A stretch of 64,000 bases of DNA. Origin: Asparagopsis taxiformis. Taxonomy: Eukaryota; Rhodophyta; Florideophyceae; Bonnemaisoniales; Bonnemaisoniaceae. The stretch lies in the NCBI GenBank assembly GCA_030407315.1, contig JALQPE010000069.1:62001-126000 (forward strand). Reading direction: 5' to 3'. This document shows, piece by piece, positions 7,790 through 38,409 of the stretch. Both the position numbers and the translations under genes were made by a program. The notes beneath the pieces were generated by a model. The model did not search any database. It had not been told where the DNA came from and saw nothing but the letters and a program-made list of their open reading frames with translations. Numbering within the stretch: position 1 is the stretch's first letter; every line of letters begins with the position of its first letter.

Positions 7790-8560
7790 GTCTTTAATTT
7801 TTTCATCCTCTCGCTCACACCCCCTTCCTGTTGGTGCTCACCTCCCCCGTACTGTACCTCAAACACCCCCAATACCACTTTAGCACGCATTTTCAGCTAC
7901 CTATCCACGCTTCCACGGTGCACACCTCCATTCCATACCTACTTTTCTGCTCTACCCTACAGATTTCGTATAACCAGTCCTCATACTACCTCAGAATAGG
8001 GAAAAACACCCCCTATCTCCTCGACCATGCTCTCCCCCAACACCTTTGCAACGTATTGTTCTTCAATACCCTCTCTCCTCTACCCTCAACCCCTCTCCTT
8101 CGCCCTCTCCACAAACTTCCCTGCAGCTTACTCTTCGAAAACCTCTCACTCCCCATCCCGTACCCGACCTGCTCCACCCTGCCCTCCCTCAGCTGCTCCA
8201 TGCCCCCACGCCATCCGCATCTTCGATACCGTATACACCACCACCACCGGCCCACGCTCCCGCTCCCCCGCCGTCTCCCCAGAAACCTCCCCGCTCTGAA
8301 ACACATATCAACCCCCCACTTCGCACCCTTCCTCCCACTCCCCTCCCTCCCCAAATACAATAACCCCCTTCTTCTCCATCACATCCCCACTCACCACAGC
8401 CAGAACAGACGCCACACCCTTCCCGCCTCTTTCTCCTCAGTTTCCTGAAAACCCCTCCTCTCGGGGCCTTCAACCGCACCCTCCTACGGTCCCACCTAAA
8501 CACCTCCTCCGCCCTCACTACCCCAACACCCCGCAGCGTCTCCCCAATCCCCATAATATG
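7790..8560. other. G-poor, pyrimidine-rich strand tract
   Basis: The plus strand is almost devoid of G for about 770 bases (runs of CCC, CTC, ACC). Every frame stays open on both strands, which is a composition effect. No trustworthy gene on the plus strand. Confidence 0.6.
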
Positions 8561-8667
8561 CTTGTCGGCACTCCTCTCCGAATCACACTCCATTCTAAAC
8601 CCGCACTCCGTACATTTCCACCTCCCCCTGTACCATCCCAAGATTGCATCCCTCCACAGAACACATC
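8189..8667 (-). pseudogene. Possible remnant encoding a C2H2-like zinc finger
   Basis: The minus strand of the G-poor tract is open for about 160 codons. Near the start it has WKCTECGFRMECDSERSADKH, with paired cysteines and a His that resemble a degenerate zinc finger; later it is Gly/Arg/Cys-rich low complexity. There is no ATG before the finger. It could be the eroded N-terminus of a transposase (the intact one at 25598 also starts with a finger) or a product of the biased composition. Confidence 0.2.
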
Positions 8668-9067
8668 CTCATACCACAGAAGAATTTTCTTCCTCTCATA
8701 CCTCATCCTTAAAACCTCCATCTGCTCCATGTAAATTTCGATGTAAATATTTTCTCCACTATGCAATCTCAAACATGTACGAGCCTATGGCTTTCCGCTT
8801 TGTCAACCCTGAATATTGGTACTCATGTATTCATAAAATAGGGCCACCCACATCCCTATCCCGTTCTGCAAGCTTTACAAACCACTAGACGCATACTCCA
8901 CAACTATACAACAAACACTACTCGCTATTTCAGACGACGCGGTACACAAGTAGCGTAGTCTCAACCTTCCGTGCAGCCTTCCCTGATGCGTAAAAGTGCG
9001 AAACACGTCTAGACTATTACTACTACGATATAGTATATCAGAAGTGACTGCGGGAATTTTCGGCACA
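8668..9067. other. No gene recognised
   Basis: About 400 bases with no convincing frame, RNA motif or repeat. Confidence 0.5.
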
Positions 9068-22556: not shown

Positions 22557-25500
22557 TTATTCTTCTTCATTATCATCTGTGAACTGGTAATCAGTGTTGG
22601 TGTAGAAGCGGTTGAGATAGAAACGGTGGTCCGACCAGTGCATTTGTTTCGTAAATGGCTTGACTGGAAAGTTACTTCGTACGATGTGCACGGTGCCAGA
22701 TATAGTAGATGCAGGAATGAGGTCAAACCAAGGACCACCTGCACTGTGGGATGCAGTGTCATTGCTGTCAACGGATCCGTTGTCCGGGTCCCATGTGGAC
22801 CACTTTAAACAAATGCACCCAAGTGATTTTTCCACAGCGGTTTTTGGGGCAAAGCAGGTCATATACTGAACGAAAGCGAGTTCTACAGGTTGAAACAGGT
22901 TTGGAGACTGCAGGCGTACCAGTGCCAGGACGCGCCCTACCCATATGGTTCTGTAGTCATCGGCAGTTCCGGAGATGACGACAAAGGAGTACTGCGATCT
23001 CTTTGCGGGGCCGAATGATGAAGTTGCAAAGACGCGCTGCTGCTTGTGCCTCGACACGTTTGTGGGGCGAAGCATGCCACTGTGCGGGTCAAAGTCGTCG
23101 GCATCTGGGACGTACCCTCCCATGACGTAGGCGGACTTTACCACGGTGACGGAAATGTCCATGTCATGTATTGGAGGGCCTTCTGCCGTGGCGCGCAGTC
23201 TAGCGAGGGTGAGGAACGCTTGTGCAGCTGTGTCACCGAGTTGCTGGAATAGCGTTATGGTGCCAGACGGGAACGAGGAGTTGTGCAGAGGCAAAAGAGT
23301 GGCAGGATCGGGCTGTCCGTCGATATCTGCAACGAGGAGGGTTGCATCGGGCAGCAGGGAGGCAAAGTCGTGCAGTGCAACGGTGAATCCGTCGCGAACG
23401 AGTACTGCACCGTCTGTGGGCGATATCATGCGTGGGTTTCCCAATGTGTTCGATGGGGTGTGACCAGTTGGAGTGGCCAAGGAGAATTCCATGTGGCGAA
23501 TAGTCTCTTCCATGGCTGTGGAGCGCCTTCGAGAGGTTTTCCTATAACTCTGTTTGAACAGAAGATGCGAGTGTTCGTAGGGGCCTGCATCAATGTGTTC
23601 CAGGGCGCCATATCTCTGCAAGTCACCGGGAAGATGGTCTAGAAGATGGAACTTGAAAGTTTTGAGACCTGTGGTGTGGAATGGGCCGAGGGTGGAGAGC
23701 ATTGATTGTTTGAAATAGGAAATGGAGTTCTGGAGGCTTTCTAGTTCGGCGGCAGTCCAGTGCTTGATGCGACCGCGTTTCATGACCCATGCGACGAGGT
23801 CAGAGTATTGCGTGCAGATGGAAGTGAGGGGGGCTGTCTCTACTTCGTCACAGCATGTGTCAATGAATGCTGCGATGAAAGGGAACACCATGTCGACATG
23901 GTGATAGTCTTTGGCTGCGAGCATGCCGCGTATGCCGTCCTCCGTGAAGAGGCCGTTCAAATTGGTGCCCTTCTCACCCTTGGAGAAGTCGACATGAAGA
24001 CCGGTGATGTAGTAGTCGCGTTCGATAGCGGACAGAATGCTGTTTGAGCCGGCGAGGATGGATTTTTTCACCTTCTTGAAGGTGCGAGGTGTCCCGGAAT
24101 GGGAGGCAGTGGTGGTGGTGAGGTCTGGGGAGCTGAGGCGGTGGACAATGCACTGTTTGATGAGCTTTGAGATGCCGAGGTGGAGATTGTGCAGAGGCTC
24201 GAAGGAGAAAATGTTGTAGGGGTCTAGGGGACTGTTGGTGGGTAAAAGAGCGGTCGATTCGAGGACAGAGTGTTGTTCGAGGAGGGAGAGAGCTTCGAGC
24301 GGAGCAGTTGTATGCTCCTGAGCGCTCTCTTGGCGTGCAGAGCGTGTATCATCGAGGGAGCGGGGCTGGTGTGGCGCGGTGGATTCAAGTTGAGTGGCGG
24401 GGATGTAGCAGCGGTGGCAGGGATGTGTGGTGGTAGTGCTGTTGCGAGTGCATGACAGCTCTTTGGCCTCTGGAAAGTCGCAGCAATAATTGGCTAGGAT
24501 GGGAAAGCATTGGCGGGCAGTTGCAGTGGAGTCTGTGCAGGGGAACCCGGAAGAGAACGCGGTGGATAGGGACGAAAACACTTTTTCGAGTGCTTTATGA
24601 AGAATATCAATTTTGCGAGCGCGACTAGCAGAACTAGAGGTTGTCGGCATTTCATCACCGAACAAGGCGTTGGACGAAGGGTTAACAATGTACGGAAGAT
24701 ACCCGACGATGGTGAGGCCGGTACGGATGCAGTGGCGACGGAGGGGGGCGGAGAAGTTGAGCAGTGTGACGTGTATGGGGTATGCGACGATTGCGGAGCT
24801 CTTGAGGCTTGTGCTGCTCTTGTCGGAGTACACTTGGAGGAGGCCGGCAAAGGAGGAAGCGGTGGGATCAGTTTCCTCTGCCCATACGACCTGTGGATCT
24901 TCCGAGAGCTGCACGCGCTGTCTAGTAACCTGGTGCAGCGTTTTCGCGAATTCTGTGTGTAGGGGATGAGAAAATATTGCGGTGCCGTCTGGGGCGGTCT
25001 GTGGGGAGGGGTGGAAGAGAGTATTTTGGTCGTTAGCCAGTGCTAACTGCCTGCGGAGCATGTCGACTGGGTCGCGGAGGTACAGCTGTGCCGAGTACTT
25101 ACCAGTTTTGTCTGGAATGATGTGGCTCTTGTAACCTTCGGTGCGGAAATGTGTTTCGACCATGGAAGCGGTAACGTGGCGACATTCTTCTACGGTGCGA
25201 ACGGCGCTGTTGAACTTTTCTAGGGAGAATGCGGGGTCTTGTAGGATGGTGATGACTTCGCTCACGCGGCCAGCGCCGGCCTTGTACTCGAGGGTTGTGA
25301 GACTGGCGGCGAGGGATTGCACGAGGAGGTCTGCGCGGGAGGGGGTTGAGGTTGGTGGCAGTGGAGCGTCACAGGGTGAGTCGCTGGAGGAAGCACGACC
25401 AGATTCTGGGTCTGGGGAGCTGGGTTGCGGGGAATCATGGTCGCCGTTTCGAGCAGGCTCATGGGTGACGGCAGGGACACGAGCGTTGTTGAAATGTTGG

Positions 25501-25598
25501 GGAGAGGGGTTGAAACGGTAGCGACACGTTCGCTCATGCAGCGCGAGCGCATAAGCATCTACGCAGTAGTAGAAGCACCCTTCATACTTGCATTCCAT
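22557..25598 (-). CDS. Plavaka-type transposase
   Basis: A full-length 1013-residue frame with ATG at 25598. It begins with a C2HC-like finger (CKYEGC ... LHERTC). A disordered Pro/Ser segment follows to ~110. The core has the family landmarks: LLQVYSDKSSTS (catalytic Asp region), IVGYLPYI, PCHRCYIPATQLE and FEPLHNLHLGISKLI, then a KFHLLDHLPGDLQRYGALE motif with YEHSHLLFKQSYRKTSRR near residue 700. These fit Plavaka transposases (CMC/CACTA-related, common in fungi). The frame is uninterrupted over 3 kb, unlike its neighbours, so it may be active. It is the best candidate to mobilise E1. Exact catalytic triad not proven by eye. Confidence 0.8.
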   Translation of the reverse strand: MECKYEGCFYYCVDAYALALHERTCRYRFNPSPQHFNNARVPAVTHEPARNGDHDSPQPSSPDPESGRASSSDSPCDAPLPPTSTPSRADLLVQSLAASLTTLEYKAGAGRVSEVITILQDPAFSLEKFNSAVRTVEECRHVTASMVETHFRTEGYKSHIIPDKTGKYSAQLYLRDPVDMLRRQLALANDQNTLFHPSPQTAPDGTAIFSHPLHTEFAKTLHQVTRQRVQLSEDPQVVWAEETDPTASSFAGLLQVYSDKSSTSLKSSAIVAYPIHVTLLNFSAPLRRHCIRTGLTIVGYLPYIVNPSSNALFGDEMPTTSSSASRARKIDILHKALEKVFSSLSTAFSSGFPCTDSTATARQCFPILANYCCDFPEAKELSCTRNSTTTTHPCHRCYIPATQLESTAPHQPRSLDDTRSARQESAQEHTTAPLEALSLLEQHSVLESTALLPTNSPLDPYNIFSFEPLHNLHLGISKLIKQCIVHRLSSPDLTTTTASHSGTPRTFKKVKKSILAGSNSILSAIERDYYITGLHVDFSKGEKGTNLNGLFTEDGIRGMLAAKDYHHVDMVFPFIAAFIDTCCDEVETAPLTSICTQYSDLVAWVMKRGRIKHWTAAELESLQNSISYFKQSMLSTLGPFHTTGLKTFKFHLLDHLPGDLQRYGALEHIDAGPYEHSHLLFKQSYRKTSRRRSTAMEETIRHMEFSLATPTGHTPSNTLGNPRMISPTDGAVLVRDGFTVALHDFASLLPDATLLVADIDGQPDPATLLPLHNSSFPSGTITLFQQLGDTAAQAFLTLARLRATAEGPPIHDMDISVTVVKSAYVMGGYVPDADDFDPHSGMLRPTNVSRHKQQRVFATSSFGPAKRSQYSFVVISGTADDYRTIWVGRVLALVRLQSPNLFQPVELAFVQYMTCFAPKTAVEKSLGCICLKWSTWDPDNGSVDSNDTASHSAGGPWFDLIPASTISGTVHIVRSNFPVKPFTKQMHWSDHRFYLNRFYTNTDYQFTDDNEEE

Positions 25599-26269: not shown

Positions 26270-27290
26270 AGGGAAGCGTGGGTTTTGAGTCTGACTATTT
26301 CCGTTGATGCGATATTTTTCATTGGAAGCCTGTTGACTCATGGTGTGTATTGAGCGGAGGATGGAAGAGAGGTACGTGAAGTTTTGAAAGTATGCTGTGA
26401 GGGAAGGTTGGTTTTGAGTCTGACTGTTGTGGTTGATTCCGATGTTGTGTAGATGATGCAGGAATGTTGATGACGGAAGGTAAGTTTCATTGAGTGCCAA
26501 GATGTGCTTTGCGAAGATATGGACTGCTGACTATGATTATTATTCATTGCAAGGTTTTTGGATCATGGTTTGTATTGTGTGTAGGATGGATGAGAGGTAC
26601 ATTTGCGAGTTCTCAGGGTATGTAGCGAGGGAAACGTTGGTTTTCAATCTGACTGTTGCGATTGATTCCGATGTTGCGTAGGTGATGGAGGAATAGTGAT
26701 GACGGAAGGTAAGTCACATTGGGCGCCCAGACCGGTTGTGCGAAGATGCGGAATGCTGACTACTTTTCTTGGCTACACGATTACGTGATTTATGGTTTTT
26801 ATTGTGTGCAGGATGGAACAGGTAAGGTAAGTGTGCGAGTTTTGAAAGTAAGCAGCGAGGGAAGGTTGGTTTTGAGTCTGACTATTTCTGTTGATGCGAT
26901 ATTTTCATTAGAAGCCTATTGAGTCATGGTGTGTATTGTGTGGAGCGAAGGTAAGTGTGCGAGTTTTGAAAGTAAGCAGCGAGGGAAGGTTGGTTTTGAG
27001 TCTGACTGTTGTGGTTGATTCCGATGTTGTGTAGATGATGCAGGAATGGTGATGACGAAGGTAAGTTTCATTGAGCGCCAGGATGTGTTTTGCGAAGATA
27101 TGGACTGCTGACTTTGATTATTCATTGCAAGGTTTTTGGATCATGGTTTGTATTGTGTGTAGGATGGATGAGAGGTAAGTAAGGGAGTTTCTAGGATATC
27201 TGTCGTGGTAAGCGTTGCTTTTGAATCTGACTGTTGGGGTTGATGTTTTGTATGTGATGCAGGAGTGGTGAAGCAGGAACGGCAGGACTG
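26270..27290 (+). repeat. Tandem array of intron-like units separating micro-exons
   Basis: Two alternating unit types recur. Type A (26480-26584, 26709-26811, 27061-27163) starts GTAAGT and ends TGTGTAG or TGTGCAG; type B (26372-26452, 26597-26681, 26951-27034, 27176-27260, plus a variant at about 26827) starts GTACGT, GTACAT or GTAAGT and ends GTGTAG, GCGTAG or GATGCAG. Both contain a CTGAC branch-like site. They flank short segments such as GATGGATGAGAG (12 nt) and a 27-nt segment. This is the layout of introns of about 80-105 nt around micro-exons, duplicated in tandem. No long frame exists across the DNA. Confidence 0.5.
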
Positions 27291-27615
27291 AAGAGAGTGA
27301 AGAAGGGATCTAGGAAGATGGGGAATGAAGCTGTGAGGTGTTTCTGGTATGTGTATATTTTGGGGCATACGATAGAAGTGAGAGTGGGTTTCAAGTGGTG
27401 TAAGATTTTGCTGACCATGTTCGTGTTTGATGTCTTGATGATTTAATGGGCTGGGGTGGTGTCGAGGAAAGCGGGATGGAATTGGGAAGGAGCGGATTTT
27501 TTGTAATCAGGTCGTGAGGGTTCTTGAAGTATGTGCGGATGGTGGTGCATGGCGTTCGGATGGTAGGGAGAACGCGATAGTGAGGGAGATGGGTGATCGA
27601 CGATATGCTGACAGG
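27291..27615. other. No gene recognised
   Basis: About 325 bases between the array and a minisatellite. It may hold the last exon of the array gene (open from 27261), but no motif is visible. Confidence 0.35.
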
Positions 27616-27735
27616 TATTTTGTATTCTGGCTGGATACGTATTTCATATTCTGGCTGGATACATATTCCGTATTCTGACTGGATACGTATTTCGTATTCT
27701 GGCAGGATACATATTCCGTATTCTGGCTGGATACG
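27616..27735 (+). repeat. 24-bp minisatellite, five units
   Basis: Unit of the form TATTTCGTATTCTGGCTGGA plus TACR, five copies, with more degenerate copies to about 27790. Confidence 0.85.
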
Positions 27736-27918
27736 TATTTTCTAACCGGGTATTTATTTCCTATTCTGACCAGATATGTATTTCCTATTCTAGAGAGACG
27801 TATTGTATACGAGCAGTTTCGTAAATGAGAGAATAAAATACGGTCCGATATGGGCCCTGAATTTACCATCCGCTGTAATTTCTTCCCTCCCGGTTTTCGC
27901 TGATATATTGTATACTGG

Positions 27919-28133
27919 ATGTCGGGTCCTAGTATTCCGCTGTATGTACTAGAGAACGTGGATGTCGGGTCCTAGTATTCCGCCATATGTACTAGAGAAA
28001 GTGGATGTCGGGTCCTAGTATTCCGCCAAACGTACTAGAGAAAGTGGATGTCGGGCCCTAGTACTCCGCCATATGTATTAGAGAAAGTGGATGTCGGGCC
28101 CTAGTATTCCGCCAAACGTACTAGAGAAAGTGG
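27919..28133 (-). repeat. 43-bp tandem repeat, five units (E1 right subterminal)
   Basis: Units start at 27919, 27962, 28005, 28048 and 28091. Each contains GATGTCGGGTCCTAGTATTC and GTACTAGAGAAAGTG. In reverse orientation these blocks match those at the left end of E1. Confidence 0.9.
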
Positions 28134-28180
28134 ACGTCCGCATCCAAAAAAAATTTTATTTTTTTTGGACGCGGACGTTC
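28132..28180. repeat. Hairpin with A/T loop
   Basis: GGACGTCCGCATCC and an A run face a T run and GGACGCGGACGTTC; about 22 bp pair with two mismatches. Part of the E1 right end. Confidence 0.75.
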
Positions 28181-30263: not shown

Positions 30264-30427
30264 TTACAGTAGGTAGTCTGTAAAGGATGACAGATTAACT
30301 TTAGATTAACTTCAGGTTGTGGTCTGAAAAAAAGTACCAGAGAACCAATTTTAGTGTGGCCATCTGTCACACTACCTAAAATACTGTGGGTATCGAAGGT
30401 GCGAATCCGAGAATAATCTAACAATAT

Positions 30428-30650
30428 TGTTGTACGTGGCCACGGGACGGGGAGAGAAAACGATGTAGGTTGTAGAAACGTAGATAGATGATTTTTCTAA
30501 GTCTAGCTTATCTCCCCTTAGGTTATTCCGACCGCTGGGAGCTGTATTTAGCTTCCTACGGTTGGACGGCTGGAAACTTCCAGACGTCCATCTAACCCTA
30601 AATTAAAATTCTGGTAGAAATTACCTGTAGAATTTTTCTTGTAAAAGTCA
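30428..30650 (-). repeat. 3' LTR
   Basis: On the minus strand this is the downstream LTR. No difference from the 37221-37443 copy was found. Confidence 0.9.
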
Positions 30651-30670
30651 TTTCCACATGACCCCCCGGC
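30651..30670 (-). promoter_or_regulatory. Polypurine-tract candidate
   Basis: On the minus strand CCGGGGGGTCATGTGGAAA leads directly into the LTR start TGACTTTT. This is the expected place for plus-strand priming, though the tract is imperfect. Confidence 0.4.
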
Positions 30671-30722: not shown

Positions 30723-30729
30723 TATAAAA
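30723..30729 (+). promoter_or_regulatory. TATA box of the antisense gene
   Basis: TATAAAA on the plus strand, 263 bases before the ATG at 30992 and inside the retrotransposon. It gives the antisense gene its own promoter, separate from the LTR. The stretch 30797-30850 contains paired TTACAGT/ACTGTAA blocks. Confidence 0.6.
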
Positions 30730-30991
30730 GCCGGCAGTACTTTCGCGTGGGCCTGGACTCCAGACCCTCTTCCACCGCTGACCCCTTCCTTACTGTAAGC
30801 ACTGTAAGTACTTTACAGTAGTTGGTAGCTTACTGTAGTGCGATAACTTACAGTAAACGTCTGTTTGCAGCCATCCCACTTCCCGTCTTCCCTTAGGTCG
30901 TCTCTCCGAGCACCCTGCGTAGTCGCGGTCATCGATTTGTTGAGATCTTGCTTACGTGGGCCTTTCGGTACCTGGTAGGTGATCCATTGAG

Positions 30992-32451
30992 ATGGCCAAG
31001 ACGAAACAGACCGCAAAGAAGTCGACTGGGGGACTGCCCCTCGGCAGGAGCTAGCTGCTCGGGCGGCGCGGATTCCCAGACGAGACCCTCCCGCGGCTCC
31101 TGGCACCTACCGTCGCGAGGGCGGCCAGGAGGTACGCTATCGCCCCGGGGAAGCCGTCCCCGTGCGGGCCAACGAGGTTAACTTCGACGACAAATCCCAT
31201 CGGGGAATTCGTCAGAACCTCTTCCGTTGGTTCGGACGTGAAGACGTCCAGAACATCCGCCGCTCCTCCGACCACCGTGGTCGTTTCGTCGTCGACTTTG
31301 GCCGAAATCGTCGCGATCCGTGCCAAGTGACGGCCAGGGAACTAGAGTTCCTCTTCGGGCCTCAGATCGTCGAATTCGCCTCCGATCCGGCCATCTCCAT
31401 CCTTACCGCGGAGATGGCTTGTCGTCTCGGTCTCACCGAATCCCACGGTGACACCGAGAAGTACGCCGAATGCCCCGACGACACCGATTGGATCATCGAG
31501 AAGATCTGGTTGTCGAAGGGCGGTGAGAACGGCGAACTGGAAGGCTGCTTCTATGCCTCCGCCGAAGGGGAGCGAACCGGCCATCGAATCGATCTGTATA
31601 CCATGGTTTTCCGTCAGGTCTCCGAACCGGCGGAGCGCGACGCGGCACTCCAGGAGCAGGATAACCCCTCTCCTGTGACCAGAGGGAATGGTCAACCCTC
31701 GCGGGTGAGTTTAATAGCCAGCATCGACGCTTGGTGTTACAAGAAACCTGGGAAGAAGAAACGAGTCAATGTCGCCATGGCTCGGGTGCCCTCCCTCGAA
31801 GCCTCCCCATTCTTCGTGGGGACTCCTCGGAACCGCGTGGTGGTACCTGTGCAGGACTTCACCAACAACTGCCTGCGTGCCGCGGCCGCCAATGGGATCG
31901 CTCTCGTGTGCGATTTTAACACGGCCGATAGGTTTTTCCGTCGGGAGCTGGCTCGGGACGAAGAAGAACGCCTTGTTCGAGGTTATTGTACTAGTGTCGT
32001 GGACTTTGGTTCTGTCTCGAAGGCCATCGATGATCGTGCTCCTTCAACAGTGACTCTGCCCCGGGTGGCGATCCCCCATTTCGACCTAGGAGCCCCAGAT
32101 CCGCGCTCTAGGCAATGGGCGTGGTTACGGGAGAAACTTTCGAGGGAGCCGGACGTATACGTGGTGCAGGTTTGGAGTCGAGATGGCCTGAAACACGCCA
32201 TATGTATCGACTCTCGTACCTGGCCTGGTCTCATCTACGACTCCTCTGAAGCCTTTGTGATGAGTCTAGAGCCTCGGGCATTCTTCTTATGTTGTAGCAC
32301 CAGTAAGTCGTCGGATTTCTCCTCCTTCAATGATCTTCGACGCGTCCAACGGGAGGGTTCAAATCCAGAGGAGAAGCGCGCTAAGCGACAGCGCATGAGG
32401 AAGCGCGAGAAGGTTCGCAAAGCGAAGATCGACGGTGAGGGGTTGTCTTAG
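30992..32451 (+). CDS. Antisense retroelement protein with a histone H3 tail-like N-terminus
   Basis: From ATG 30992 the sequence is AKTKQTAKKSTGG after the initiator Met, matching histone H3 residues 1-13 except R2K and R8K. One base then seems missing in the C run at 31037-31040. In the next frame the match resumes with RQELAARAAR (H3 17-26) and, after an insert, RYRPGEAVPVR (H3 40-49). The H3 histone fold is absent. The protein then continues for ~410 residues. A later part has NNCLRAAAANGI and KHAICIDS ... YDSSE, which could be the Cys and His of a papain-fold peptidase, a weak guess. The tail is very basic. K4 and K9 are kept; K14 and K27 are not. It is convergent with gag-pol. Confidence 0.7.
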
Positions 32452-32617
32452 CACAGAACGATTTGATAGAGAAGGAAATGAATCGTATTGAGTAGACTAG
32501 CTAGTAATGGGTAGAGAGATCTAGAATTGAAATGAATGCATAGACAAGGGTTGAATGATTAAAAAGGGATTATGCATAAAAGGGAGTGTGCAAACGAAGG
32601 GTTTCCCTAATGGAAAC

Positions 32618-35600
32618 TTAATGCAGTAGATGTAGTGGACGCCTACGGAAGAGAAGTAGACGTCTCGCATGGATGGGGCGGCGTGATACCTTCGCTTGGT
32701 CGGAGGCGAGTAGGTATCGGGGGTGGCTAGATTGGATGACCTTAAACGGTCCGTACCACTTAGTTTCGAACAGCGACAGCTTCGTCGTTCCGAAAGCCTT
32801 CCCTTCGCCACCAGGACCTCGTCGCCTACCTCGAACCTTCGTTCAGGTAGGTGGGCTCGAGCTTGGGTATTGCGTAGATGCATTTCTACCCTGCTCGCTC
32901 GTTGCGACTGGAGAGCTAACATCTCAAACAGTCGGGATTGAGGGTCCAGCGGACGGTCCAGAAGCGGTGACGGGTCGTGGGCGACTACCCTTGGTACCAC
33001 TCCGTACATCAGTTCGAAGGGTGAGGTGCCGCCTGTCATGCAACGACGGCGGTAACCGTAGAGCACGTGCGGGAGTAGGATGTCCCATTCGACCGAGTCC
33101 CTGCCTTTAACTTTGGCTAAGGACCTCTTGATGGTCCCTACCATTCGCTCGGCTCGCCCATTAGACATGGGGGAGTACTCAAGCACGGTCTTCCAATCGA
33201 TCCCGTTGCTCTTCATGAAACTCGCGAGTGTCGCAGCTGTGAAACACCCCGCATTGTCGAATACAATGGTAGTTGGGGGGCCGAACGAGTAGATGATCTC
33301 ATCCTTCACGAAATTGAGTACGACATCCGCGGTACTAGCTGCGGTGGCCCTGGCGATAGGCCAGCCAGTGAGGTGTTCGACGGCGATGAGAAGGAATCGG
33401 TTACCTTTGGCCGTGCGCGGGAGCGGCCCCGCAAAGTCGATGGAAAACGTGTGGAAAAGGCCTGTCAACGGCTGACTCAGGGTAGTCCGATAGCAGGGTA
33501 CCGGTTTATTCTTCTGACACCCCTCACAACTCCGAACGTAGTCGTGAATGTCCTTGCCCATACGCGGCCACCAGTAACGTTCCACGATAAACTGGCGGGT
33601 CGAGGCAGCGTCCCAATGACCGATGTTGTCGTGGAACATTTGCAGGATCTTGATTCGGAGCGGAATCGGTGCGACTACCTTGGGTCCCAACGCGGTGCGG
33701 CGAAAGAGCTGGTCTTCCCAGACTAAGAAATCCTTGGAACTCCGTCGAACCTTTTGTCGAGCGAGACCCTCTACTTCGGGCTCAGCTCCACCCCGTAAGT
33801 ATTGGAACACTGCGACTAGGTCAGGTTCTATGCGGAGGGTTTCCGGAATGGCGAGCAGTGCGAGGTCGCCCTCATCTTCTCCTGACCCCGGAGCGGTATG
33901 GGTTTGTTCTAGACGGGACAGAAAGTCTGCAGCGGAGTTCTGTTTTCCCGGCCTGAACGATATGACGAAGTCGTATTCCGCGAGGAAGTCGAGCCAACGG
34001 GCAAGTCGCCCGTGTATATCCTTCTTCTGGAATGCGTATTGCAACGCTTGGTGATCCGTCATCAGCTTGAAGGGCTGGGTGGACAGAAGGTAGAGTCGGA
34101 ATTTCTTCAGTGCGAAGATAACTGCTAGGGCCTCTCGTTCGCATGCCGAATATTTTCGTTCGGCCGCATTCATCGTCCTACTCGCGAATTGAATAGGATG
34201 AATACGCCCGTCTTCCTTCTTCTGCGCTAGTACAGCTCCGACGGATACGGAGGAGGCATCTGTCTCGACTACGAAGGGAGTATCGAAGTCAGGGAAGGAA
34301 AGGACGGGAGCCGAAGTTAGTTTTTCCTTCAGCGTCCAGAAGGCCTGATTCATCTCCTCTGTCCATTCGAAGGAACGTCCAGAAGAGGTATATGGGAATA
34401 GAGAAGCCGAGATGTCAGCAAACCCCTTAATGAACCGGCGATAGTAGCCCGCCAAACCGAGGAAGCTGCGGAGCTCGGAAGCGGTTTGCGGCGGAGCTAC
34501 GTCTCTAATGGCAGAAATCTTGGCGGGGTCTACTGACACCCCATCGTGGCTAACGATGTGACCAAGCAACTCGACTTTAGGTTGAGCGAAGAAGCATTTG
34601 ACGATCTTCAGCTTCAAACCCCTCTGACTCAAAGTCTCGAAAAGGATACGAAGGTGGGAGACGTGTTCTCCCATGTTTTTAGAGAATACCACAACGTCGT
34701 CGAGATACGCTCGGACGAATGGAAGATCCTTGACCATCTCATCCATCATCCTCTGGAAGGTGGACGGGGCATTCATTAGTCCAAACGGCATAACTTCGAA
34801 CTTATAGGTACCGTAACGGGTGACGAAAGTCGTCATCTCTTTGCAAGCGGTATCCATTCAAATCTGCCAATACCCAGAGAAGAGATCGAGAGTGGTGAAG
34901 AGGGAATTTCCTCCCAATTCATCGAAAATCTCTTCGATCCTGGGTAAGGGCCAACGATCGGGTTTGATCTTCCGATTCAGGATGCGGTAGTCGACGCAGA
35001 AACGAGGTTTCCCGTCCTTCTTCGTAGCTATGACCACCGGGAAGGACCATGCTGATGAGGCCGGGGTGATGATTCCCGCTTCCAGCATGCGATCGATTTC
35101 GGATCGTACTACCTCGTTGTGTTTCGGCGACAACCGACGAGGTTGGTGGTAGACAGGGGTGTCGTCTTCCAGCTCAAAAGAGTGTTTAACAGGGACGTCG
35201 GCTTTCCTGAGATCGTGAAAGGACCAAGCTACTATTCCGTAGTCCTTCAACGACTCCGATATAACTCGTCTATCCGAGGGTGATAGATGCACGAGTTTTT
35301 CTTCGATGAGCTTGTCATGCTCTTCGGTCTCAGAGAGGTCGCTCTCCTCTTCGACCGCTATTTGCGGCTTGGCGAAATCAACGTGGGTGACAATTAGCGT
35401 ACCTTCGTCTTCTTCGCCTGAAGAAGTCGTCGAGGCTCCTTCATCGGTGCTGAGAGACGTGAAGTCTTCGCTTTCACTACCACCCTGGGGAAGGAAGTGG
35501 AGGCCGTTATCGGGTTCTAGCCCAACCCTTGCCGATTCTTTGCCGAGTTGTATCTCAACGACTCGACTCCCAATGTCCAGTTTAGCCTGAAGATCCTCCA

Positions 35601-37221
35601 TGGCCGGTAAGCCGATGATGAGGCCGATAGGTGCTTTTTCAATGGTGAGGAAATCCATGGAAGCTGTGAGGTTTCCAAAGGTTATGAGCACATCTTTGAC
35701 ACGACCAATGCAGTTGGCGCTCGACCCATCTGCGACCCTAATCCTCTGCTTGGTACGCTTCGGCAGGAGGCACAACTGACGGGCGAGATCTGCAGAGATG
35801 ATATTGGGTATAGCTCCAGTATCCAGGAGCGCACGAATCTCTCGACCATAGATACGAACTGGCGCGACCATCAGAACTCGTTTGTTCTGAACGTTTAAGG
35901 CTGGCGCGGCCTTACTCGGTCGGCGATTCTTAAGGGGCGAGAAGAGACGTCGCATCTCTTTGGCGGCTTCGGCGGCGTCTCCACGGAGGAGTTGGTCGAA
36001 CGTGAGGCCTGTAGACGCATTAGCGAGCTCTCCAACAACGTCGTACTTTCCGACGTGATCTTGAAGAACCTTCTTGGAAGTGTTCTTTTTCTTCGCCTTG
36101 CGGTTTTTCTTCCCTCGGATGGGAAGAGGCTCCAGTTGCAAGGGAGGTAGGATACGACCAGGCGTTGGGTGCATCAGGTTTTCAGTATTGATCCCCTCAG
36201 CTCGACGTTGCTTCGGAACCGCTTCTCCAGTCATGGTACGTTTCGTAGTACCAACAACATCGGGAGTTGCGGTTACAACGGTAACTTGATTCGAACGGGA
36301 GGAATCGTCCCTGCCGGTAGAGGGGCTCCTCTGCTTCTCCGTGCCCTTCTGGCGACTATAGGAAGTCGCGACAGAATGACCCAGACGACCACATTTTGAG
36401 CAACGGGTGTCTCGGTGAGGGTTTTCGGGGCAGGAGTTAGCCCCATGTCCAGGCTTCTGACAGAAGGAGCAAGGACGAGGCGTTTCGCGCCTATCCGATG
36501 AGTATGCTCCTGTCTGCTTGCGGACGATGAGGGAGAGCTCAGCGAGTTGCTCCGCTAGCTTGTCTACCTTGTTCTCCACCTGTGACGTTCGTGCGTCGGG
36601 ACGGTTCAGGACCCGCTTAGATCCAAAGGTGGAATCGAGCGGGTGCTGTTTCCCTGTATCGTGATACGGGACGGAAGAGAGGAAGTCCTTGCGACCCTGG
36701 TCGAAGTCACGCACTACTTTCTTGAGGTCGGTGTAGTGCGTGGCACCGCGATAGATCGCGAACTGGGCCAGTTCTGGGAAGCGGGAGAGTGCATTCCTCA
36801 GAAGGCCAAACTTAGCTTCATCATTGAAAGATGCCTTTTCGAACAGACGATCCATAGTTTTGAGCGATCCGACAAGATCCTCGGGATCCAGTACCGCATT
36901 GATGGCACTGTGGATCTCGTCACTCGGCTCTGTCTTGACTCCGAAACGATCGATGAAGGCCTTCTTGACGAGGGCGTAGTTCATAGCCTCTTCCGTCAGC
37001 GCTCCATCCTTGGCGAACGTTTCGTAGTAGAAGTCGAATGCCTCGCCCTCGAGGTGGGCGAGAAGTTCGAGCGCTTTCTCCTCGTCGGACTTGCCGCACA
37101 TAGCGACGTTCTCGAAGAAGAAGAAGAACTTCTTGACGTCGGAAGAGAGAGAGCCGTCCATCTTAGCAGTGGATGGACCCGCCTGCTGGTTCGGGTCGTC
37201 GGCCCTCCTCAAGAGTACCAT
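32618..37221 (-). pseudogene. Ty3/gypsy Gag-Pol polyprotein, one stop and one frameshift
   Basis: ATG at 37221 lies at the LTR/primer-site junction. Order: Gag; zinc knuckle CSFCQKPGHGANSC (~36475-36430) and a second knuckle whose last Cys is Ser; protease LLDTGA (~35830); reverse transcriptase with FCVDYRILN, a TGA (34860-34858) after GYWQI where CGA is likely, then YLDD; RNase H (VVETDASS); integrase with HHCC finger (H-x3-H ... CEGCQKNKP) and D, D, E residues near 33438, 33260 and 33150. At 32803-32801 one G is missing in a G run, shifting the frame. In the restored register the chromatin-facing tail of the integrase ends at a TAA at 32620-32618. With the stop this copy cannot make full Pol. 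Confidence 0.9.
37204..37220 (-). promoter_or_regulatory. Primer-binding-site candidate
   Basis: On the minus strand TGGTACTCTTGAGGAGG follows the 5' LTR end (ACA) directly. TGG complements the CCA end of a tRNA; I cannot name the tRNA. Confidence 0.5.
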
Positions 37222-37443
37222 GTTGTACGTGGCCACGGGACGGGGAGAGAAAACGATGTAGGTTGTAGAAACGTAGATAGATGATTTTTCTAAGTCTAGC
37301 TTATCTCCCCTTAGGTTATTCCGACCGCTGGGAGCTGTATTTAGCTTCCTACGGTTGGACGGCTGGAAACTTCCAGACGTCCATCTAACCCTAAATTAAA
37401 ATTCTGGTAGAAATTACCTGTAGAATTTTTCTTGTAAAAGTCA
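37221..37443 (-). repeat. 5' LTR
   Basis: Upstream LTR of the minus-strand element, from which gag-pol would be transcribed. Confidence 0.9.
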
Positions 37444-38409
37444 TTTCACAAATATCTGCTCCGTTTCTCCCAATTCACACCGTATGTGCCAATACAAAAA
37501 TTCAGAAGCTGCAGCAGCAAACCTCGATATCGGTTTGTCCACTTGTCGTATCGATGTAAGCTGGCCGTTTTGCGATACTGTGCTGTAGCGGATACACCCA
37601 ACCTGGGCAGTACACTATACCATACACTATCACAGTGTACATGCTGGCCATAAAGCTACCAACGACACTCAGTGTCATCGTAAATTGGTAGCAGTTTCGC
37701 CGTACTGTACCACTGGCCCCGGTCACGGCCACATGCACGCACCCCCACCCCGTGGGACACGCTGTCCCATACTCTGTGCATCCACCACCATCCCTGCGCT
37801 GCTCCGCGCACGCCAGCACTCCCCGCCAACCTTCCCCGCTCCCACCACCCTCTCCGATCCCCTTGCCCACCGCATCCCCCACCCCTGCGCACTCCAGACG
37901 CTCGCCAAGCGCGCGTTTAGCACTTGTTCTCCTTAATCGCCCATCAGCCTAGATTGGAAAGCAGAGGTAGAAGATGTAATATGTAGACCAGATATTACTT
38001 TTATGAGGTTATGTGGTCCTACCGGGCTCATTTGTTCGGACCCGGCCCGCCTGGAAGCAACATGGAGATGTAAGCGATGAAGTGCCAGCACGATGCAAGA
38101 CAGTAGTAGTTCCTGCAGTCTCGACTCGTCTGCTTTGTTGTTGTACCATTGTTTCAATACAGTGCTACCATGTGATGAGATTGTTCAAAATATCTACATC
38201 CCGAGTGGTATGGACCTGTTGTGCTGTTAAAGAAATTTTGTTTGTATTTGTCGTAATATCAATGTTTTTGAATTAGCACCCCCTGTCTATTTTTTTAATG
38301 TTTCGTCCCGTGCTGTTATAAAGTTCACTTTGGGAACTTTACATTTCGTGGCGCAATGGGACGGCATTAGCTTCGAAACGAGAAAATTACTTTCTCTAGT
38401 ATGAAATTG
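37444..38409. other. No gene recognised, boundary of the transposon region
   Basis: About 960 bases. Bases 37720-37920 are C-rich on the plus strand and open in several frames, probably by composition. A TATAAAG at 38317-38323 could serve the RNA candidate that follows. Confidence 0.4.

Follow-up and report, generated by a model that had tools for sequence, protein, structure and literature searches.

The histone mimics reviewed in PMC10208167 are either whole viral histones or short motifs, and among the motifs ARSK of influenza NS1, ARKS of SARS-CoV-2 ORF8, and AKKRS of adenovirus protein VII imitate residues of the histone H3 tail. Antisense accessory open reading frames (ORFs) between pol and the 3' long terminal repeat (LTR) are known in the plant gypsy retrotransposons Retand, Grande, and RIRE2 (PMC11963269), and the word "histone" is absent from the main text of that Retand paper. 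Here we describe a Ty3/gypsy retrotransposon in a stretch of 64,000 nucleotides from the red alga Asparagopsis taxiformis (the window, C69:62001-126000 in a genome assembly of 141.5 Mb and 3,156 contigs), which carries an accessory gene resembling the plant ORFs in position and orientation. Like the viral mimics, its product is a parasite protein that imitates the H3 tail; however, the viral motifs comprise four to five residues, whereas the imitation in this accessory protein runs over about 27 residues in register, is N-terminal and retrotransposon borne, and is fused to a protease-like domain.

Histone mimicry by ORF8 has reportedly been disputed in one paper. Chromodomain-containing gypsy elements (chromoviruses) encode a reader of H3 and so, like the present element, deal with H3; in contrast, the element in the window would offer a ligand, and no chromodomain was found in its pol frames at an E value of ≤1 in Pfam searches. 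Chromodomain matches are very numerous in the same genome (1,826 candidates, of which 150 were scored), many of them in open frames of 1,100 to 1,634 codons, which probably represent a large chromovirus load. Among the matches listed from the open-access literature apart from bioRxiv, by searches aimed only in part at this question, no transposable element was described as carrying an H3-tail mimic.

An H3-type tail on an accessory protein

The accessory gene (30992-32451, + strand) occupies the interval that separates the pol end from the 3' LTR and is antisense to gag-pol. Its ATG opens MAKTKQTAKKSTGG, after which the frame breaks; APRQELAARAAR resumes in a different frame from 31036 and is followed by a linker with RYRPG and an open frame of 429 codons that ends at 32451. 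The earlier note, made from the window alone, had described this order of tail, break, and continuation, and had placed the gene antisense inside the element. The strand and the location within the element are as described, but the gene occupies a separate region: its stop at 32451 is 69 bases short of the pol frame end at 32521, and therefore the two frames do not overlap.

Of 88 match rows in the same genome, 13 are stop-free open frames of 489 to 490 codons, each of which has the tail at its beginning. These unbroken copies rule out a copy-specific artefact, and neither of the outcomes that the earlier note had named as contradicting its reading (family copies lacking the tail frame or lacking an open frame across the break) was found in them. 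The 486-residue protein P0001 (from L003, lineage 1) begins with MAKTKQTAKKSTGGTAPRQELAARAAR. A second lineage in the same genome, about 40% identical, begins with MARTNQTAKRSTGGRAPRKDLAAAAAR, and P0003 (438 residues, source "lgn"), which was found by a tail-less profile search (E = 1.4e-47) and is 28% identical to P0001, begins with MARTKQIASKSTGGRAPRKQLASKCAR. An in-frame stop four codons upstream of Met establishes that the tail is N-terminal in lineage 1; the lineage-2 frame is open for 65 to 124 codons upstream, so that the start there is presumed. The protein searches scored the best 8,000 candidates by shared words and may have missed relatives, and H3 words may have crowded the candidate list of the first search; the third search returned P0003 alone among its best 8,000 candidates, and contig scans found no relatives in viral and prokaryote contigs.

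The accessory gene belongs to the element. It was located within every one of the 11 LTR pairs recognized by eye among 40 LTR rows (112 candidates, of which these 40 were scored), and at the lineage-2 loci L048, L052, and L055 a 53%-identical integrase adjoins the gene on the opposite strand; no pol match was seen at the remaining lineage-2 loci in the sequence stretch examined.

Over the 27 tail residues, identity to H3 is 20/27, 20/27, and 22/27 in the three lineages, compared with a maximum of 14 identities among 200,000 shuffled versions of each tail. Searched with phmmer against PDB sequences, P0001 and P0003 matched histone H3 at E = 2.7e-7 and 2e-6, respectively. A 52-residue host H3 query against the whole genome returned 54 rows at E ≤ 1, comprising 3 host H3 rows, 50 rows of the accessory family (49 assigned by coordinates, with C2686:39046 lying 1.6 kb from its match, and C2232 assigned by reading), and 1 chance-level row (E = 0.96); the frame-broken copy in the window is absent from these 54 rows. 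The tail is thus of the H3 type by the genome query, phmmer, and the shuffles alike. The absence of a histone fold claimed in the earlier note also stands, since none of P0001, P0002, and P0003 matched a histone family in Pfam (E ≤ 10) and none of the 17 rows of a genome search with PF00125 falls at an accessory locus; these searches rule out an H3 gene or a histone-fold protein. An HMMER alignment extending the H3 likeness to residue 90 was rejected by judgement, as that likeness is not visibly shared by lineage 2 or P0003. The host H3 itself looks fungal. Separately, L043 together with L039 (C2491) probably makes up a gene for a centromeric H3 variant, which seems to be interrupted by an intron and has a quite different N-terminal tail.

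Comparison of P0001 with the lineage-2 protein of L050 gave identities of 74% in the tail (20/27), 18% in the linker (6/33), and 40% over residues 61 to 455 (152/382). The ratio of nonsynonymous to synonymous polymorphism (pN/pS) in seven lineage-2 copies was 0.60 for the linker against 0.15 for the tail. Fourteen lineage-1 copies gave 0.40 (tail), 0.37 (linker), and then 0.25 and 0.14 further on, so that by this measure the tail does not stand out in lineage 1. Both the comparison between lineages and that within lineage 2 point to an H3-like segment kept by selection in a non-histone protein, and the lineage-1 ratio is unremarkable. As judged from sequence, the tail has retained its likeness to H3 through the divergence of the remaining protein, and the mimicry proposed in the earlier note is well supported by a tail that is present in three divergent lineages and better conserved than the linker and the rest.

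At 15 of the 26 non-Met positions, H3 and the representatives of the three lineages share one residue (A1, T3, Q5, A7, S10, T11, G12, G13, A15, P16, R17, L20, A21, A25, and R26). None of the five tail lysines is kept in all three lineages (P = 0.007), and lysine cells are kept in 7/15 cases versus 52/63 for other residues (Fisher P = 0.007), P values that are rough in view of the frequent exchange of Lys and Arg and the kinship among the lineages. Lineage 2 carries N4 and R9, and R8 is mostly replaced, which weakens the earlier note's emphasis on K4 and K9. All 38 counted tails have Thr (28) or Arg (10) at position 14, a count that excludes two stop-bearing tails, rests on a search pattern fixing most of positions 1 to 7, and takes in L061, which is frame-shifted past residue 17, and some overlapping loci (L027 and L029); P0003 has Arg there. 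Codons identical to those of host H3 number 5/19 in lineage 1 (5.6 expected) and 8/19 in lineage 2 (5.6 expected; standard deviation, 1.8). The codon comparison suggested in the earlier note thus gave values near expectation, which do not discriminate between capture and convergence and make the origin of the tail old or convergent.

A predicted papain-like protease domain

Papain-like peptidases share a motif in which Cys stands at the start of a helix and His and Asp lie on following strands. The structure model and structural alignments of the accessory protein predict a papain-like fold, in which C294 opens a model helix (70-82), H402 is on a strand (177-183), and D407 and D417 come after. 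His402 and Asp407 are invariant in 13/13 rows of alignment A4, and Cys294 is present in 10/11 covering rows, with Phe in L050 (the tree left out L071 and L073 of the 13 rows). The accessory protein is therefore probably a papain-like cysteine protease, as modelled, and the predicted fold and shared Cys/His/Asp support the cysteine-peptidase-like domain that the earlier note had considered possible. Identity to papain-like peptidases in the structural alignments was 6 to 14%; a few of the 50 rows are non-peptidases by title (silicatein, phytochelatin synthase, and P210 CD lyase), and a separate model of the whole protein, all 486 residues, had a predicted local distance difference test score (pLDDT) of 37 and was discarded.

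The predicted fold and the Cys/His/Asp arrangement resemble those of the C39 peptidase domain of PCAT1 and of peptidases of the staphopain, Josephin, and UfSP types; unlike these, the accessory protein has no significant sequence match to such peptidases in Pfam or PDB. The tail-less protein gave no significant match to Pfam or PDB sequences, with four weak Pfam rows below the cutoff (NOMO_6th, SH2, HTH_50, and PAXIP1_C), and the tail-less relative L065 gave three weak rows against PDB sequences (E, 0.36 to 1.8). Whereas the Retand ORFs mostly encode a TRP28 domain (PMC11963269), P0001 and P0002 had no Pfam match at E ≤ 10, TRP28 (PF04195) included.

Two further families (L065, L066, L068, L070, L072, and L073), present as open frames of 385 residues or as fragments, have the papain-like domain in common with the accessory protein, and no H3 tail was seen in them. 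L065 and L066 are nearly identical copies, which suggests recent mobility.

How the tail might act

We hypothesize, with about even confidence for and against, that the element encodes a probably nuclear papain-like protease with a copy of the H3 tail as its first 27 residues, the tail serving as bait that brings the protease to H3-tail binders or blocks them. The accessory gene would be read from its own promoter-like site on the strand opposite gag-pol; a TATA-like site lies at -269 in 16 of 23 distinct lineage-1 leaders and at -260 to -268 in 3 (none in 4), and a TATA-type site lies at -195 to -208 in 6 of 10 lineage-2 leaders (none in 4, among them L064, with only about 100 bases of leader). 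Removal of Met would leave Ala1 exposed as in H3, and the basic C-terminal end may send the protein to the nucleus. There the tail could engage host proteins that grip the backbone core of H3 (A1, T3, Q5, A7, S10-G13, A15-R17, and L20-A21), placing the protease on H3-tail-binding proteins or blocking those proteins, with weaker silencing of the element or better chromatin access as the possible outcome. The sequence evidence suggests histone disguise as a means by which the element acts on host chromatin. If so, this would be a new route for selfish DNA against chromatin silencing, by a long in-register H3 tail fused to a protease-like domain.

Since conservation fails at the modifiable lysines (no Lys at position 14 in the counted tails), the arm probably serves as a pseudosubstrate or a ligand that cannot be modified, and not as a substrate for marks. 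More tentatively, such a pseudosubstrate might keep the recognition core, drop the acceptor lysines, and jam or capture host H3-tail enzymes and readers, with the attached protease acting on the captured complex as an anti-silencing weapon. A Pre-SET search of the host gave no match, and the search controls gave no match either. If bait it is, the family would amount to a natural mutational scan of the H3-tail residues needed for recognition, apart from modifiable lysines.

The main rival starts from the conserved Leu20-Ala21 pair and from the clipping of H3 around this site by enzymes of the cathepsin type: the protease itself would clip H3 tails, its own N terminus being a substrate-like prosegment that is autoinhibitory or self-cleaved. 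The predicted fold fits this idea, as do Leu20-Ala21 and a following small residue kept in all three lineages, and cathepsin L is described as clipping H3, with a cut between A21 and S22 reported for Plasmodium (PMC12269491). The likeness to that system lies in a papain-like protease coming together with the H3 Leu20-Ala21 region; the difference is that the accessory protein carries the tail within the putative protease itself. However, residues 3 to 17, away from the clip site, are equally conserved, and tail-less relatives would require another target. We consider a prosegment unlikely.

H3 tails carry nuclear import information, and the tail could instead serve as an H3-type signal for import or chaperone handover of the protein or an element complex. 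The basic C terminus likewise suggests the nucleus, but import signals rest on basic residues, whereas the tail lysines are not kept, and looser conservation would suffice for that purpose, so we regard an import signal as quite unlikely. A relic, meaning an H3 tail acquired in a single capture and retained without present use, would fit the lack of codon likeness to host H3 above expectation, which would make the event old, and the lineage-1 tails, which are not specially constrained by pN/pS. Against it, the tail keeps 20 to 22 of 27 H3 residues where the rest of the protein is 28 to 40% identical and outdoes the flanking linker, and P0003, from a further lineage, holds the tail at the same level; such a relic is very unlikely in our view. 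A chance basic N terminus or an assembly chimera with H3, for which only the shortness of the tail speaks, is hardly credible given shuffles never above 14 identities, occurrence at numerous distinct loci of one genome and also in a second public source, and tails that deviate from true H3 at particular positions and lack H3 codons.

The element and its surroundings

The element is on the - strand, and its two LTRs are identical over 227/227 bases and flanked by a presumed target-site duplication. The order of aspartic protease, reverse transcriptase, RNase H, and integrase across two - strand frames is that of Ty3/gypsy elements, the reverse transcriptase being divided between the frames according to Pfam (Table 1).

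Table 1. Features of the element and its accessory gene in the window
Feature	Position	Strand	Remark
Target-site duplication (presumed), AATAT	30423..30427 (left), 37451-37455 (right)	.	Flanks read by eye
3' LTR	30428..30654	-	Identical to 5' LTR; by eye, end reaches ~30658
TATA-like site	30723..30729	+	269 bases upstream of accessory ATG
H3-tail mimic	30992..31071	+	27 residues in unbroken copies; frame broken at ~31037 in window copy
Linker with RYRPG	31072..31170	+	Residues 28-60 of unbroken copies; weakly conserved between lineages
N-terminal domain, fold not assigned	31171..31605	+	Residues 61-205; low-confidence model
Papain-like cysteine protease domain (predicted fold)	31723..32355	+	About residues 245-455
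Cys294, presumed catalytic	31870..31872	+	Same in representatives of five lineages
His402, presumed catalytic	32194..32196	+	Invariant in 13/13 alignment rows
Asp407, candidate third catalytic residue	32209..32211	+	Alternative Asp417 at 32239-32241
Basic C-terminal tail, possible nuclear localization signal, and stop	32353..32451	+	K/R-rich ends in lineage 1, lineage 2 (L048), and P0003
Remainder of reverse transcriptase, RNase H, integrase	32521..34857	-	Pfam
gag region, aspartic protease, start of reverse transcriptase	34858..37236	-	Pfam
5' LTR	37221..37447	-	Identical to 3' LTR; by eye, end reaches ~37450

The presumed 5' leader, which runs from the TATA-like site to the ATG, contains dense ACTGTAA/TTACAGT motifs in direct and inverted orientation at 30780-30860, as read by eye. 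A second mobile element lies near the gypsy insertion, where a 1,013-codon open frame (22557-25598, - strand) matches a Plavaka transposase (E = 2.3e-24). The most extreme GC skew of the 64 one-kilobase steps, -0.61, is at 8001-9000, where no tandem array was reported. Tandem arrays with units of 229, 24/48, and 43 bases are clustered at 26278-28138.
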